A stretch of 41,029 nucleotides of DNA from Kiritimatiellia bacterium. GTDB lineage: Bacteria > Verrucomicrobiota > Kiritimatiellia > RFP12 > UBA1067. The stretch's first letter is position 1. Each line of letters starts with the position of its first letter. The position numbers were made by a program, and so were the translations under genes. Positions 5,927 to 11,493 of the stretch are shown in pieces. A model generated the notes under the pieces. That model was not told where the DNA came from and made no database searches. It saw only the letters and a list, made by a program, of their open reading frames with translations. The stretch is from positions 1 to 41,029 of the forward strand of contig JAFSTA010000129.1 of assembly GCA_017450695.1 (NCBI GenBank). The letters are read 5' to 3'.

Positions 5927-7057
5927 TTAGTAGAACAGGACACGTGAGAAACGTTTCCAGCCCTTGGCGATGTTCGCTAGGTCTGTTCCAGTTTCGAGTT
6001 GCCGTCTCACGGTGTCGGTTCCGTAGAGTTTGTCGAACCATTCGGGGCGGACGCCTTCGCTTTTCCACACTCTCTCCGCCCCGTACAGTTCGGTTAGGGT
6101 TCGGATGACGGCGAGGGAGGTTTGCACCGGACGGAACTTTCGCGCGTCTGTTACCGTCAGCCTCACGCCGTCCAACTCCTTGCCGTCGTGTCTGCCCCCG
6201 ACGGCAGTGTAGCGATGCGGGGAGAAGGTGACGCCGTGTACGCCAAGGTCGGCGACCTTCCTGCAAAATTCCTCGGCGTGAATCCACGGTGCTCCGAAGA
6301 TTCGGAAGGCCAGCGCAGTGTTGCGTCCGCAGTCGATTTCCGGAATCGCCTCGCAGAAGACCGTCGCGGCGTATGTCATCGCCGTTTCGCGGGAACGGAT
6401 TCCTGGGGAGGGCGGGATGAAATCGGGAAACCCGCTTTCGGCGAATCCCGGCGAGGGACGGCGGTAACCGGTCATCTTCACGACATGCAGGGAGACGTCC
6501 AGGCTGAGGTGCTTCACCATCCAGGTCGCGACTTCCCCCATTGTCATGCCATAGACCATCGGAACGGCGACGGGGGCGACGAAACTGGCGAACGGCGCAT
6601 GGAGCATCGGGCCGTCCACCACATCGGGTAGGGGAATCGGGCGATCCGCGACAACCACGCGCAGATGGTTTTCTGCGCAAGCCTCCAACAGGAGTTGCAG
6701 CGTGCCGAGGTAGGTGTAGCAACGAACGCCTAGATCCTGTAAGTCGAAAACCATCGTGTCGATACCCGCCAACATGTTGGGTGTGGGTTTCCGCGTGTCG
6801 CCGTAGAGCGCATAGACGGGGATGCCCCAGTCGGGATGCTGTCGCCCAACCGTTCGTTCCCCCGCGCCGAAATTCCCGAAAAATCCGTGCTCGGGACCGA
6901 AAAGAGCTACTAGATTCTTACCCAGTGCGCGATGGAGCAGTTGTGCGGAGGTTGCCCCGCATCTGCCCACAGCCGCCAGATGACTGAGCAAGCCCACGCG
7001 CTGTCCCGCGAGTAGTTTGCAATTCCCGTCTATTAAAACATCAATTCCAACTTTCAT
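5927..7057 (-). CDS. DUF1343 / NamZ-type exo-beta-N-acetylmuramidase
   Basis: A 376-aa protein matching the DUF1343 family over its full length: N-terminal GIDVLIDG, FGPEHGFFG (about residues 53-61), VFDLQDLGVRCYTY, VVADRPIPLP, VPMVYGMTMGEVA and GVTFSPHRY. Characterised members such as Bacillus NamZ remove terminal N-acetylmuramic acid from peptidoglycan fragments in cell-wall recycling. No signal peptide is seen, so a cytoplasmic location would be inferred here, although characterised enzymes can be exported. The gene appears to be expressed from its own promoter as a leaderless message. Its TAA stop adjoins a dispersed repeat. Confidence 0.85.
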   Translation of the reverse strand: MKVGIDVLIDGNCKLLAGQRVGLLSHLAAVGRCGATSAQLLHRALGKNLVALFGPEHGFFGNFGAGERTVGRQHPDWGIPVYALYGDTRKPTPNMLAGIDTMVFDLQDLGVRCYTYLGTLQLLLEACAENHLRVVVADRPIPLPDVVDGPMLHAPFASFVAPVAVPMVYGMTMGEVATWMVKHLSLDVSLHVVKMTGYRRPSPGFAESGFPDFIPPSPGIRSRETAMTYAATVFCEAIPEIDCGRNTALAFRIFGAPWIHAEEFCRKVADLGVHGVTFSPHRYTAVGGRHDGKELDGVRLTVTDARKFRPVQTSLAVIRTLTELYGAERVWKSEGVRPEWFDKLYGTDTVRRQLETGTDLANIAKGWKRFSRVLFY

Positions 7058-7376: not shown

Positions 7377-7405
7377 TTGAATCAAGTGAAAGGCGATGTT
7401 ATATT
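7377..7405 (+). promoter_or_regulatory. Strong sigma70-type promoter
   Basis: TTGAAT (7377-7382) and TATATT (7400-7405) are separated by exactly 17 bases. Transcription is predicted to begin near 7412, directly at the base of a strong hairpin, and to read through the structured region into the methylase gene. Confidence 0.7.
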
Positions 7406-7411
7406 GGATTC

Positions 7412-7649
7412 GTTCGTTCGCGCGGTGCGCGGACGAACCTGGCGAGGCGGGAGAAATCCGCACGTCTGAAGATTGCTTAGCATCAACGCGAACAAGTCGT
7501 TCTGTCGAAGTACTACCACTATTTCAATCTGTAAACGATATGTGAGCGATGATGCGCCCGTATGGGCGCATTGTCTCTTCATGTATTTACAGATTAGCCT
7601 GTGGTAGGGCTACGACAGAGTGTATGAATGGGTAATGCGCTCTCTTTTT
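7412..7649 (+). ncRNA. Candidate structured RNA or 5' leader
   Basis: There is no convincing coding frame here. The predicted RNA starts with hairpin GTTCGT-t-CGCGC-ggt-GCGCG-g-ACGAAC (7412-7438). A 119-base four-arm imperfect hairpin follows: 7501-7507 with 7613-7619 (7 bp), 7513-7519 with 7601-7607 (7 bp), 7526-7535 with 7586-7595 (10 bp) and 7552-7559 with 7564-7571 (8 bp, GTAT loop). Internal loops are almost symmetric (5/5, 6/5, 16/14). GAGTG/CGCTC (7618-7642) followed by TCTTTTT could act as a terminator. It may be a stand-alone ncRNA or an attenuating leader of the methylase gene. No known RNA family was recognised. Confidence 0.5.
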
Positions 7650-7741
7650 ATGCATGTGACATGGTGTCCGCGACGCGGCGAGCGCACCAGACGAAAGGGT
7701 CACGGCATGGGTATTAAGAATCGGGCGATTATCGCCCTGCT

Positions 7742-7762
7742 CTCCGCGCTCCTTTGCGGAGG
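7742..7762 (+). promoter_or_regulatory. Hairpin covering the methylase ribosome binding site
   Basis: CTCCGC (7742-7747) pairs with GCGGAG (7756-7761), burying the Shine-Dalgarno GGAGG (7758-7762). A second hairpin, GGGCGA-tta-TCGCCC (7723-7737), stands directly upstream. GGAGG has ideal 7-base spacing to the ATG at 7770, so folding would reduce methylase translation. Confidence 0.5.
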
Positions 7763-7769
7763 CATGACG

Positions 7770-8756
7770 ATGGGCGACGTAAAAGGACTTCACGCCGCAA
7801 AGAAGGCGAAGAAGGACGAGTTCTATACGCAGCGAGTCGATATCGAGAACGAATTAAGGCACTACAAGGCGCATTTCAGGGACAAGGTTGTCCTCTGCAA
7901 CTGTGATGATCCACGTCAGAGCGAGTTTTTCAAGTACTTTGCGGAGAACTTTGAGATGCTTGGTTTGAAACGCCTCATCGCTACCTGCTACAAGTCGCAG
8001 GATGTTGATCTCTTCTCGCAGGGCGACTGCGAACGGGCTATCTGCCAAATCTATGAGGGCGACAAGAACGGGAACATGATTGTCGATGATGACGAGATTG
8101 GCGTTCGCGAACTCAAGGGCGATGGCGATTTCCGGAGCGAGGAATGTATCGAGATCCTGAAGGAAGCGGACATCGTCGTTACCAATCCGCCATTCTCGCT
8201 CTTCCGCGAATACGTCGCGCAGCTCGTCCAGTACGGTAAGAAGTTTCTGATCATCGGTCATCAGAACGCCATCACCTACAAAGAGATATTCCCTCTCTTC
8301 AAAGGAAACAGAATCTGGCTCGGTTTCGGGTTCAAAGGGAATGCCGCCCATTTCCGTTCCCGCTATGAGGATACGGCGGTGGCATCGGATCACCGAGAAG
8401 GGATGATCCGAGTGTCTGGGGTCATGTGGTTCACCAATCTCGACATACAGAAACGTCACGAGATACTTCCCCTCTACAAGAAATATACACTGGCGGAATT
8501 CCCGAAGTACGACAATTATGATGCGATTGAAGTTTCCAAGTCTGCGGACATACCATGCGACGATTACGGCGTGATGGGCGTTCCAATCACATTCATGGAC
8601 AAGTACAATTCGGATCAATTTGAAATCATAGGATGTAGTGATAACGGCGCTGTTGCTGACGAATACAAATTACCACATTTTAAAAGTCATAATGAACCTT
8701 ACTTGAATGGTAAAAAAGTTTATAAGCGCATCTTCATCCGACGGAAACAGAAATGA
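7770..8756 (+). CDS. EcoRI-type adenine-specific DNA methyltransferase
   Basis: A 328-aa protein with the N-terminal signature of the EcoRI methylase family: HAAKKAKKDEFYTQ, then DIENELRHY (about residues 7-30). It also has the amino-methyltransferase motif IVVTNPPFSLF and the late block GVPITFMDKYN. The family methylates the inner adenine of GAATTC; the specificity here is inferred only from family membership. The length is close to that of M.EcoRI. The ATG at 7770 is chosen because GGAGG lies 7 bases upstream. An in-frame ATG at 7707 would add a signal-peptide-like stretch that makes no sense for this enzyme. No restriction endonuclease partner is visible nearby. GC is lower than in flanking core genes, suggesting acquisition. 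Confidence 0.88.
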   Translation: MGDVKGLHAAKKAKKDEFYTQRVDIENELRHYKAHFRDKVVLCNCDDPRQSEFFKYFAENFEMLGLKRLIATCYKSQDVDLFSQGDCERAICQIYEGDKNGNMIVDDDEIGVRELKGDGDFRSEECIEILKEADIVVTNPPFSLFREYVAQLVQYGKKFLIIGHQNAITYKEIFPLFKGNRIWLGFGFKGNAAHFRSRYEDTAVASDHREGMIRVSGVMWFTNLDIQKRHEILPLYKKYTLAEFPKYDNYDAIEVSKSADIPCDDYGVMGVPITFMDKYNSDQFEIIGCSDNGAVADEYKLPHFKSHNEPYLNGKKVYKRIFIRRKQK

Positions 8757-8874: not shown

Positions 8875-11493
8875 ATGAATCCGTATGACGCCATAGAAAC
8901 CTGCCGGGGCTGCCTGGTATGGGTCTGCGAGGGGACGCTTGCCGTCCTCGCGGTCGCCCTTTTTGTCGCGGTGATGCTGCGTACAGGGCGAGGGCTGGCC
9001 GCTGCGCTGCGCCGCAGGTTCTCGTCGCCGGGCGCCTCCGTGGCGTTCGCGCTCTGCCTGTACGCCGTCTGGTGCGGTGGCACGAAGCGTGGCGGAAATC
9101 CGCCTGGAGGCGGTGAGCCGCCGCCCGACAGGTCGGGAGGCGGACAGACCGTGACCATCACCGCCGAGGACATCGCGCGGGGGTGGCGGCTGGAGGGCGT
9201 CGCGACGAACGGCGCGGTCTCCTACGCGATGCCGTCGAACGGCGTCGAGTACGCGCGCTGGTCGCTGCGTGGCGGGCGCGAGACTCATTTCGCGCTGGAC
9301 CTCGGTGACTTCCGGTTCCCCGCCGGGACCGGCGTCGTGCGCCGCATCGATGTGCTTTCGGGCGGCGCAGTCGAGTCACTGCCGCGCAGCAGTCCGCCGT
9401 TGTTCTCGGTCTGTGCGGCGAGGGAATGGGCGTCGCTCGTGCCGGGCACTGGGCGTTTCTGGTGGACGGATGCAGAGGGCGGCGCGGCGAAACTGCTCAC
9501 GTGGGAGAACGTCTATGCAGGGCGCGATTTGACGGGACAGTACTCGGCGCAGGTCGAGCTGCGGGGGAACGGCGACTTCACGGCACGCTCCAACCACGTC
9601 GAGCGAGTCTTCCGCAGGGTACCGCCGTTCGACTGGGACGATGACGGGCTGGAGAACTCCGTTGATCCAGACCCGCTGGTCGCGGGACCTGACGCGCACG
9701 GCACGAACGCCGAGTGGTACAACAACGTCTGCTCGAACGTCTTCCTCGCCGCGGAGACCCCCGGCGGCGGAGTCGCCCTCTCCCCCCGCGCCCCGGACGT
9801 GAACACGAACGCTTACTACTTCGTCGATGTCGTGGTCTCGAACGGGCCCGCGCCTGTTTACTTCACCGCCGACGGTCCGTCGCGCCTCGGCGACCCGGTC
9901 ATCGTCGCGCGGGCGGGCGAGACGAACCGCGTGCCGCTGCTGATCGGCGCCACCTATGCGGTCTCGTCGGACGTGCCGGTCACCGTCAGCGCGCCTGCGG
10001 ACGCGGTCCTCTCTAGCGCCGCAGTCCCGTGGGGGGACGGGATCTCGATCAGCTGGCCGGCGGAGTCCGTCTTCGACCCGATGCCCGGAGCCTACGTGTT
10101 CTCCATGATACCGGAGATCCTGTCCGGTCGGTTCTCGTGGACGAACGGCTGCTGTATTACGGCGAGGGACAACGTCCTGCGGTTCAACTGCAACGGCGCA
10201 TGCGACTGCGGCGGATGCTTCGCGGCGGGGTCGTTCCTGTACGAGGGGTACGCCCTCCCGCTCGTGGTGCTCGGATGCGGGTGTCCGGGAGCTTCCCAGC
10301 AGGGCGGGCCGGGGACGAACGGCTGGGAGACTGGGCTTTCCGTCGGGCTCTCGCTCGAAAGGGACGTCGTGCTCTTCGAGGACGCCTACACGAACGCGCC
10401 GGGGGAGGCTGTCGCCAAGCAGGCGACGTTCTCGGAGATCGCGCTGGATTTCGCGGCTGGCGAGAATCCGGCGGTCGTCTCCCTCCTTGTCACGCAGGGT
10501 GCGGGGAAGATCGCGCTGCACGAAGGAAGCACGAACGGCCCCGTGGTGGCGGGCTGGATCACGAACCTCCCGGCGCGGGTGAGCGGGAGCCGCGTGTTCT
10601 ACGCGGAGGGGATGGAGCCGAGCGGTTCCATGCGCGACGTCTGCCTCCGGGCCGAGGTCCGCGACGCGGAGGAGTCCGCGCTGGCGAACAGATACATGAC
10701 CTCCGGAGAAATCGAGGTCTATGCCGTGGATCCGTTCCCGACGAACCATCACCGCCACGTCTTCGGACCGTTTGAGACGGTGGAGGTAAAGCGTTATCCC
10801 GCTGGTTTACCGCTCCAGCTCAACGGGATCCTTCCGTTTGACGGATTAAACACTTTAAGCAACGGCTGTATTTCCATTAGGGTTCCATCAAAAGCGTGTG
10901 CATTCTCTCTGAATGTCTGCGTCGGGGACAACAGTCTTGGTTTGCCTTTCCGGGTAATCGTGCCGTCGTCGGTTCTTAATGTGGATTGTGTACGGTTGCC
11001 TACGACAAACGAATGGCTGGATGTAATGGAATTGGAACCATTTGTCGAGGGGAACATTGGAGCCGCGCTTCACATCGACACTAGCCTTAGCCCGAAAACT
11101 GTTTCTTTTAAGAACATCATAATGATGGAGGGGCTTGCGAATGCGGTGGAGGTGCAGGGCTATTTCACCAATGCGGTCTTTCGAGGTTTAATTAACCATA
11201 ACATCAGGGCGGGAGCCTTTAGGAAGGCTAAAGTCATGGACGGAAACGTCATCGGGACTGGGGACAATCTTTGCATCGGCTTTAACCCGGAATATCTGCC
11301 TGGCAGCATCGAGAACGGAAGTTTTAAGCTTTGCATCCCCTTCTATTGGTTTGTGGAAAGTGAAATTGAAACGAACTTGCTCAGTTTCCTCTGGTCATAC
11401 AACGCAATTTACACGAACGCTGATATGGAAGTAGGCAAGTACGGTGTCGGTGCTAGACGCGGCACGAATGACTTTACGACATTCATACCTTGA
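8875..11493 (+). CDS. Large anchored surface protein with chimeric C-terminus
   Basis: An 872-aa protein. Two hydrophobic segments (about residues 20-36 and 53-67) are followed by a Gly/Pro-rich linker (about 70-90), suggesting an N-terminal membrane anchor with an exported body. An Asp-rich motif, DWDDDGLENSVDPDP (about 252-266), looks like a calcium-binding DxDxDG unit. A Cys-rich cluster lies at about 425-472 (CDCGGC, GCGCPG). From about residue 640 (10790) the base composition falls sharply: 72% GC in bases 10201-10260 but 50% in 10801-10860. The tail is therefore probably a later replacement. No known domain is recognised in the tail. The organisation resembles polymorphic effectors with swapped C-termini, but toxicity is only inferred. 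No strong Shine-Dalgarno is seen. Confidence 0.7.
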   Translation: MNPYDAIETCRGCLVWVCEGTLAVLAVALFVAVMLRTGRGLAAALRRRFSSPGASVAFALCLYAVWCGGTKRGGNPPGGGEPPPDRSGGGQTVTITAEDIARGWRLEGVATNGAVSYAMPSNGVEYARWSLRGGRETHFALDLGDFRFPAGTGVVRRIDVLSGGAVESLPRSSPPLFSVCAAREWASLVPGTGRFWWTDAEGGAAKLLTWENVYAGRDLTGQYSAQVELRGNGDFTARSNHVERVFRRVPPFDWDDDGLENSVDPDPLVAGPDAHGTNAEWYNNVCSNVFLAAETPGGGVALSPRAPDVNTNAYYFVDVVVSNGPAPVYFTADGPSRLGDPVIVARAGETNRVPLLIGATYAVSSDVPVTVSAPADAVLSSAAVPWGDGISISWPAESVFDPMPGAYVFSMIPEILSGRFSWTNGCCITARDNVLRFNCNGACDCGGCFAAGSFLYEGYALPLVVLGCGCPGASQQGGPGTNGWETGLSVGLSLERDVVLFEDAYTNAPGEAVAKQATFSEIALDFAAGENPAVVSLLVTQGAGKIALHEGSTNGPVVAGWITNLPARVSGSRVFYAEGMEPSGSMRDVCLRAEVRDAEESALANRYMTSGEIEVYAVDPFPTNHHRHVFGPFETVEVKRYPAGLPLQLNGILPFDGLNTLSNGCISIRVPSKACAFSLNVCVGDNSLGLPFRVIVPSSVLNVDCVRLPTTNEWLDVMELEPFVEGNIGAALHIDTSLSPKTVSFKNIIMMEGLANAVEVQGYFTNAVFRGLINHNIRAGAFRKAKVMDGNVIGTGDNLCIGFNPEYLPGSIENGSFKLCIPFYWFVESEIETNLLSFLWSYNAIYTNADMEVGKYGVGARRGTNDFTTFIP

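Follow-up and report, generated by a model that had tools for sequence, protein, structure and literature searches.

A large family of structured leader RNAs in Verrucomicrobiota with competing conserved pairings at a terminator ahead of restriction-modification and surface-protein genes

Results

A structured leader precedes an orphan methylase gene

The window, that is, the whole stretch of 41,029 nucleotides from a Kiritimatiellia bacterium that was analysed here, belongs to a genome assembly of 5.0 Mb. A leader region in it is flanked by a divergent gene on the minus strand (5927-7057) and by a gene for an orphan EcoRI-type adenine DNA methyltransferase on the plus strand (Table 1). The start of the methylase is most likely at 7707 or 7770. 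An 872-amino-acid frame follows the methylase on the same strand (8875-11493) and has no Pfam match.

From 5′ to 3′, the leader comprises a start-site hairpin, a variable domain, stem A, strand a, a long hairpin built from helices b, c, e, f and g, and a hairpin with a U-tract. The whole leader (7412-7660) folds to -107 kcal/mol (z -6.7), and the 119-nt long hairpin by itself to -63.7 kcal/mol (z = -10.1). A first-pass annotation, made from the letters of the window, had proposed the promoter TTGAAT-17-TATATT, a hairpin at the first transcribed base, the 119-nt hairpin and a weak stem with TCTTTTT. All four were confirmed: the -10 element is preceded by TGn, the start-site hairpin is typical of related copies, and the weak stem is a conserved hairpin resembling an intrinsic terminator, followed by CTTTTT. 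An extended -10 motif (TGnTAnnnT) was found 40-200 nt 5′ of the conserved core in 87 of 129 copies, against 14.8 expected. When the first 30 nt after the -10 motif were folded in 81 copies, the energy was -12.6 kcal/mol, compared with -8.0 kcal/mol for shuffled sequences. Another hairpin, which had been proposed to hide the ribosome binding site of the methylase, was not supported. The Shine-Dalgarno-like GAAAGGG of the window is mostly unpaired (0.75-1.0 at six of its seven bases), and the segment 3′ of the terminator was no more structured than shuffled sequences in the 106 copies folded.

Table 1 Features of the leader and the controlled gene in the window
Feature	Position	Strand	Evidence or remark
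Promoter TTGAAT, 17 nt, TATATT, extended -10 (TGn)	7377-7405	+	Sequence; extended -10 common in related copies
Hairpin at presumed transcription start	7412-7438	+	In 84% of 81 copies, folds more stably than shuffled sequences
Variable 5′ domain	7439-7473	+	81 related copies: -24.4 vs -20.9 kcal/mol shuffled
Conserved RNA core (models R1, R2)	7474-7655	+	184 bits, E about 1e-38
Stem A, loop AUCAAC	7476-7493	+	One mismatch, hence weak in window copy; covaries in family (z -11)
Strand a of pseudoknot a/a′ (GTCGTTC)	7496-7502	+	Two-sided changes in 7/7 pairs
Long hairpin	7501-7619	+	Helices b, c, e, f, g
Helix b	7501-7507/7613-7619	+	Swap z -29
Helix c	7513-7519/7601-7607	+	Swap z -20
Helix e	7526-7535/7585-7594	+	Swap z -28
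Strand a′ (AAACGAT)	7533-7539	+	Shares 3 nt with helix e and 2 nt with helix f
Helix g	7548-7559/7564-7575	+	Part of long hairpin
Switch strand f′ (TTCATGTA)	7578-7585	+	Partner is f (7538-7542) or terminator 5′ arm
Terminator hairpin AGAGTGTAT (7617-7625)/ATGCGCTCT (7635-7643)	7617-7643	+	5′ arm and loop also form antiterminator with f′
Terminator U-tract CTTTTT	7644-7649	+	TTTT conserved in family
Controlled gene: orphan EcoRI-type adenine DNA methyltransferase, 349 aa	7707-8756	+	Pfam PF13651, E 7.5e-133

The leader belongs to an uncatalogued RNA family

Rfam 15 contains no family that matches the window or 18 distant loci at the gathering threshold, in line with the earlier impression that no known RNA family was present. 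A permissive Rfam search gave chance-level matches only. MIR1878 and UptR were rejected as identities because they fell far under their cut-offs and reflect a chance resemblance of the long hairpin. The RNA is undescribed in the literature searched; a survey of 224 RNAs (10.1093/nar/gkx699) lay outside that search.

BLASTN detected nine copies in the genome of the window and copies in 17 of 60 relatives, with about 70-80% identity over the core. We aligned 38 copies (alignment A1) and built covariance model R1 from them; by covariance model, the genome of the window holds about 18 core copies. R1 matched 80 of the 115 genomes of the GTDB family, including 25 of its 29 high-quality ones, with up to 13 copies per genome. 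It matched 112 of 162 genomes in the order and 49 of 289 genomes in a sample across the phylum. A broader model (R2), built from 107 more diverse copies, found the RNA in at least 124 of 388 phylum genomes and at least 68 of 197 genera, within and beyond the class of the window; these counts are lower bounds because six candidates were scored per genome. Matches on the reverse strand (for example, window 7501-7619, minus) were also seen, and we rejected them as copies since they merely reflect the self-similarity of the long hairpin.

An exact-core pattern occurred in 84 stretches of bacterial genomes, essentially all of them Kiritimatiellae-like; the named relatives with the element are metagenome-assembled genomes of Kiritimatiellae or 'Lentisphaerae', mostly from ruminant gut. 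Two contigs carrying the element are named Bacillota (L061) and Bacteroidales (L133) and are probably mis-binned Kiritimatiellae. The same pattern gave 0 matches in 2.9 million viral contigs, and nothing in the phage and plasmid collections matched the element; a phage or plasmid origin was therefore rejected. Leader sequences do not group according to genome or gene family, so the element is an old, reassorted regulatory module rather than a spreading repeat. From these comparisons of sequences, the folded RNA is a large, previously uncatalogued family with many copies in Verrucomicrobiota.

Selection acts on RNA of the gene sense

The first-pass annotation had named covariation among relatives as a check on the folded arms. 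RNAalifold on the 38 copies gave 46 consensus pairs, and 23 of them show two-sided compensatory change, so the RNA passed this check. At the paired positions of the 107 copies, we counted 4176 Watson-Crick pairs, 534 G.U pairs and 52 A.C pairs. This tenfold excess of G.U over A.C shows selection on RNA of the gene sense; neither a minus-strand RNA nor a DNA hairpin that works via the opposite strand would produce it. The mark of an integron attC site, namely selection on the bottom strand of the folded DNA, was thus not seen.

Next to the consensus pairs, we evaluated pairings by a swap test, which depends little on the alignment: for every copy, the energy of the duplex formed by its two strands is compared with that of strands exchanged between copies. 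Because shuffles leave relatedness in place, we used representatives of less than 80% identity and an independent set of 40 distant copies that had been used in neither model.

The switch strand and the terminator 5′ arm have exclusive partners

Two pairings that are absent from both models covary strongly. The first is the pseudoknot a/a′, GUCGUUC with GAACGRC, which takes the forms GUUGUC/GACAAC and UGGCAA/UUGCCA in other families. In the second, f′ (UUCAUGUA) pairs with t5 (UGCAUGAA), which comprises the terminator's 5′ arm and its loop; in other families this pairing is UCCGUGUA/UGCACGGA and UUUCACGUA/UGCGUGAAA. Of the 8 f′/t5 pairs, 7 show two-sided change. Taken together, a/a′ and f′/t5 are 92.4% paired, with two-sided change in 14 of 15 pairs. 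None of 500 shuffles reached this count, and slid registers were far lower.

In the swap test with 60 divergent copies, the z-scores were -9.2 for a/a′, -8.8 for f/f′, -10.5 for f′/t5 and -6.9 for the terminator stem t5/t3, and five control pairings all had |z| < 2. With the 40 independent distant copies, the values were -8.6, -4.8, -4.2 and -6.1, respectively, and the controls ranged from -1.0 to +2.7. The leader thus carries both a conserved terminator hairpin with a U-tract (t5/t3) and a selected pairing that excludes it (f′/t5). Attenuation is recognised by alternative pairings that are conserved separately and centre on an intrinsic terminator. Because f′ (with f or t5) and t5 (with t3 or f′) have exclusive partners that are separately supported, the pattern argues for transcription attenuation. 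Support for the antiterminator declines among the most distant copies, and in some variants the terminator is poor or missing in the alignment. In the GTDB family of the window, AUGCAU past the U-tract was considered as an alternative antiterminator partner of t5 and rejected, since it is transcribed after the termination point and was not seen in the other families.

When growing 5′ prefixes of the window were folded, the a/a′ hairpin appeared at 7575-7590, followed by the long hairpin and by the terminator at 7645, as the U-tract emerges. The nested long hairpin is thermodynamically dominant, and in the window copy f′/t5 (-8.9) is weaker than the terminator (-11.7). Unpaired GAAA and GG/GGGC segments are strongly conserved; with the pseudoknot and the internal loops they give the core the look of an aptamer domain, and they are candidate binding sites.

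The RNA is tied to the gene directly behind it

The core ends a median of 46 nt before a start codon; a few copies (e.g. L201, L210 and the second copy of L235) have no gene called within 150 nt. EcoRI_methylase accounts for 34 of 128 downstream proteins, and the core lies directly upstream in 23 of the best 30 EcoRI-methylase loci of the family, one more being cut by a contig end. However, specificity for a methylase, which the first-pass annotation had implied, was not supported. The RNA precedes type I, IIG, III and ISP systems, C5 and N6 methylases, helicases, transferases and BspA/LRR proteins. Restriction-modification and DNA-processing targets include N6_Mtase/HsdM, D12, N6_N4 (type III), Mrr/type ISP, MmeI-like and Eco57I proteins, SacI endonuclease, C5 methylase, UvrD-PD-(D/E)XK, SNF2 and Z1; other targets are many BspA/LRR and further secreted proteins, glycosyltransferases and acyltransferases. 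A similar mix is seen in outlying families of the phylum (HsdR, SNF2 helicase, type III and EcoRI methylases, MBOAT and secreted proteins). The device is thus a general regulatory module and not specific for methylases.

Of 137 copies, 71 have an immediate gene that matches a restriction-modification or DNA-processing representative, whereas such a gene occurs elsewhere in the flanks (678 kb) of only 7 copies. The RNA is therefore tied to the gene and not to a defence island, and hitch-hiking with defence islands was rejected because the neighbouring genes are not enriched in restriction-modification functions. We regard the existence of the RNA family and its gene association as near certain.

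Several observations concern the downstream proteins themselves. Several methylases behind the leader (window 7707-7772; L033, L044, L052, L105, L106, L128, L065 and L075) have a hydrophobic N-terminus that resembles a signal peptide, and a second good start comes after it. In the window, the N-terminus reads MGIKNRAIIALLSALLCGGMTMGDVKGL...DEFYTQ, and such a segment is odd for a cytoplasmic enzyme; perhaps it is a relic of a leader that brought signal-peptide codons from a secreted-protein gene, or an in-phase upstream frame. Two leaders on the same strand, separated by about 1.8-2.3 kb and followed by genes unrelated to each other, occur in L017 (G013:C86), L234 (G116:C17), L042 (G000:C42) and L205 (G145:C6), and some of these units encode a DUF4417 protein. 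In outlying phylum families, a large membrane-anchored or secreted protein family recurs behind the leader (L218, L298, L301, L304, L309, L310, L316 and L320), with a motif like DPDEYxxLMxxxVxDIYDLEQYF; both members scanned gave weak TSP3-repeat matches. Small proteins at L112, L092, L039 and L051, whose sequence starts VKSRERVS..GEVFTAxREVNAMLD..FLEPACGxGNFL, have a methyltransferase-like look, and the one scanned, L112, has no Pfam match.

Discussion

We consider it likely that the leader is a cis-acting, riboswitch-like transcription attenuator. Polymerase would start at about 7412 and make a structured leader with an intrinsic terminator just before the gene. In the predicted OFF fold, the long hairpin is complete and f holds f′, so that t5 is free, the terminator forms and an RNA of about 240 nt would be released. 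In the ON fold, f′ would pair with t5, the terminator would be blocked and polymerase would enter the restriction-modification or surface-protein gene. Since helices e and f share bases with a′, the pseudoknot should release f′ for capture by t5; a stabilised a/a′ would then favour read-through, although we assign the pseudoknot to the ON state only tentatively. The RNA family, its strand, the helices, the pseudoknot, the terminator and antiterminator as conserved pairings, the promoter and the gene association are read from the compared sequences; we infer that these pairings replace one another in vivo, with the balance set by a ligand or a protein. Attenuation through f′/t5 versus t5/t3 is probable, and ligand binding in the manner of a riboswitch is possible. 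Of the readings offered by the first-pass annotation, 'leader' and 'attenuation device' have gained good support from the position, the promoter, the conserved terminator and the competing, covarying antiterminator.

The proposed design resembles known systems. Transcription-terminating riboswitches (e.g. SAM-II metZ, PMC9373788) share the large pseudoknotted leader, the terminator as expression platform, the exclusive pairing of a switch strand and the release of a terminated leader RNA, which is predicted here. However, this RNA matches no Rfam riboswitch in sequence or structure, and its targets are mainly restriction-modification and surface genes. In AlpA-dependent terminator bypass (PMC9371919), polymerase is likewise let past an intrinsic terminator before effector genes, but AlpA acts via an element within the promoter, whereas the conserved element here is RNA. 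RNA control of a phage-defence gene is also seen in AbiF regulation (PMC12373285); the present RNA differs in preceding many unrelated genes, the two being set apart by literature description and Rfam only.

Two rival explanations are about equally improbable in our view. One is processive antitermination, in which the nascent RNA would act on polymerase directly (HK022 put-like) or via a NusG-type or other factor and make it resist its own and later terminators. A promoter-proximal structured RNA adjoins a terminator, as in put RNA (PMC9378689) and LoaP/RfaH-type systems (PMC12691694, PMC7819879), where such an element decides terminator passage; moreover, surface, restriction-modification and long-gene targets resemble specialised NusG regulons (PMC7819879), the surface-type targets recalling RfaH in particular. 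Several of these genomes have a second NusG paralogue. However, the RNA is a different one and has a conserved competing-strand design, and processive antitermination needs no covarying f′/t5 that blocks the terminator. The paralogue does not track the RNA either: G038, G043, G039 and G004 each combine a single NusG match with several copies of the RNA, and in G006, G009 and G011 there are two NusG matches and no RNA match. A NusG-paralogue partner was therefore rejected. The shorter second NusG-like protein itself, a candidate of the RfaH/LoaP type (G000:C274:8762-9001 and similar), occurs in many genomes of the family.

The other is a single static pseudoknotted RNA, protein-binding or ribozyme-like rather than two-state, with a/a′ and f′/t5 formed together round the central loop. 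The partners of strand a and of t5 lie in one and the same internal loop, on its 5′ strand and its 3′ strand, respectively, and the strongly conserved unpaired segments would suit such an RNA. However, f/f′ and f′/t5 share bases, as do t5/t3 and f′/t5, and each pairing is separately supported; f/f′, f′/t5 and t5/t3 therefore cannot all coexist. In addition, a and t5 join helix b nearly without a linker, which would make simultaneous formation sterically demanding.

Still less probable is a stand-alone small RNA, a discrete trans-acting transcript of about 240 nt with the adjoining gene expressed separately. The complete transcription unit and the conserved terminator would fit, but the start codon is close and the gene directly behind the RNA is specifically of one kind. 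Furthermore, a trans-acting RNA would not need as many as 13-14 divergent copies, every one before a different gene. The short distance to the start codon makes a purely stand-alone RNA, as the first-pass annotation had offered, less likely; the terminated product of about 240 nt could nevertheless have a role. Finally, a DNA element, namely a folded site for recombination like attC or a terminus of a cassette-carrying mobile element, is very improbable and was rejected by the strand test and the lack of clustering: many copies, diverse and often horizontally mobile genes behind them, a long imperfect palindrome and several methylases that look as if leaders and genes had been re-joined speak for it, but the excess of G.U, the conserved promoter and start-site hairpin, the absence of clusters expected from recent amplification, the lack of phage, plasmid or viral matches and the unenriched neighbours of the immediate gene speak against it.

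Returning to the attenuator, restriction-modification and surface proteins may be a set that is adjusted when cells face phages, or may be typical variably expressed genes. The broader proposal, that the element is a new riboswitch class, widespread in Verrucomicrobiota, which directly binds a small molecule that signals the capacity for DNA methylation or an attack by phages (SAM/SAH or a nucleotide signal, for example) and controls restriction-modification and surface genes jointly as an anti-phage regulon, seems doubtful to us at present; because the downstream functions are too mixed, no ligand can be named. With the strands of the terminator, the antiterminator and the pseudoknot delimited at single-base resolution, the attenuator model is testable at once, and as a new orphan riboswitch-like class its signal can be sought directly. 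Restraint of restriction-modification genes, and any rise in their expression when needed, is usually explained by control proteins or promoters. If the model is true, a phylum-wide RNA switch before many unrelated restriction-modification genes and surface genes would amount to a common RNA-based layer in the control of defence.
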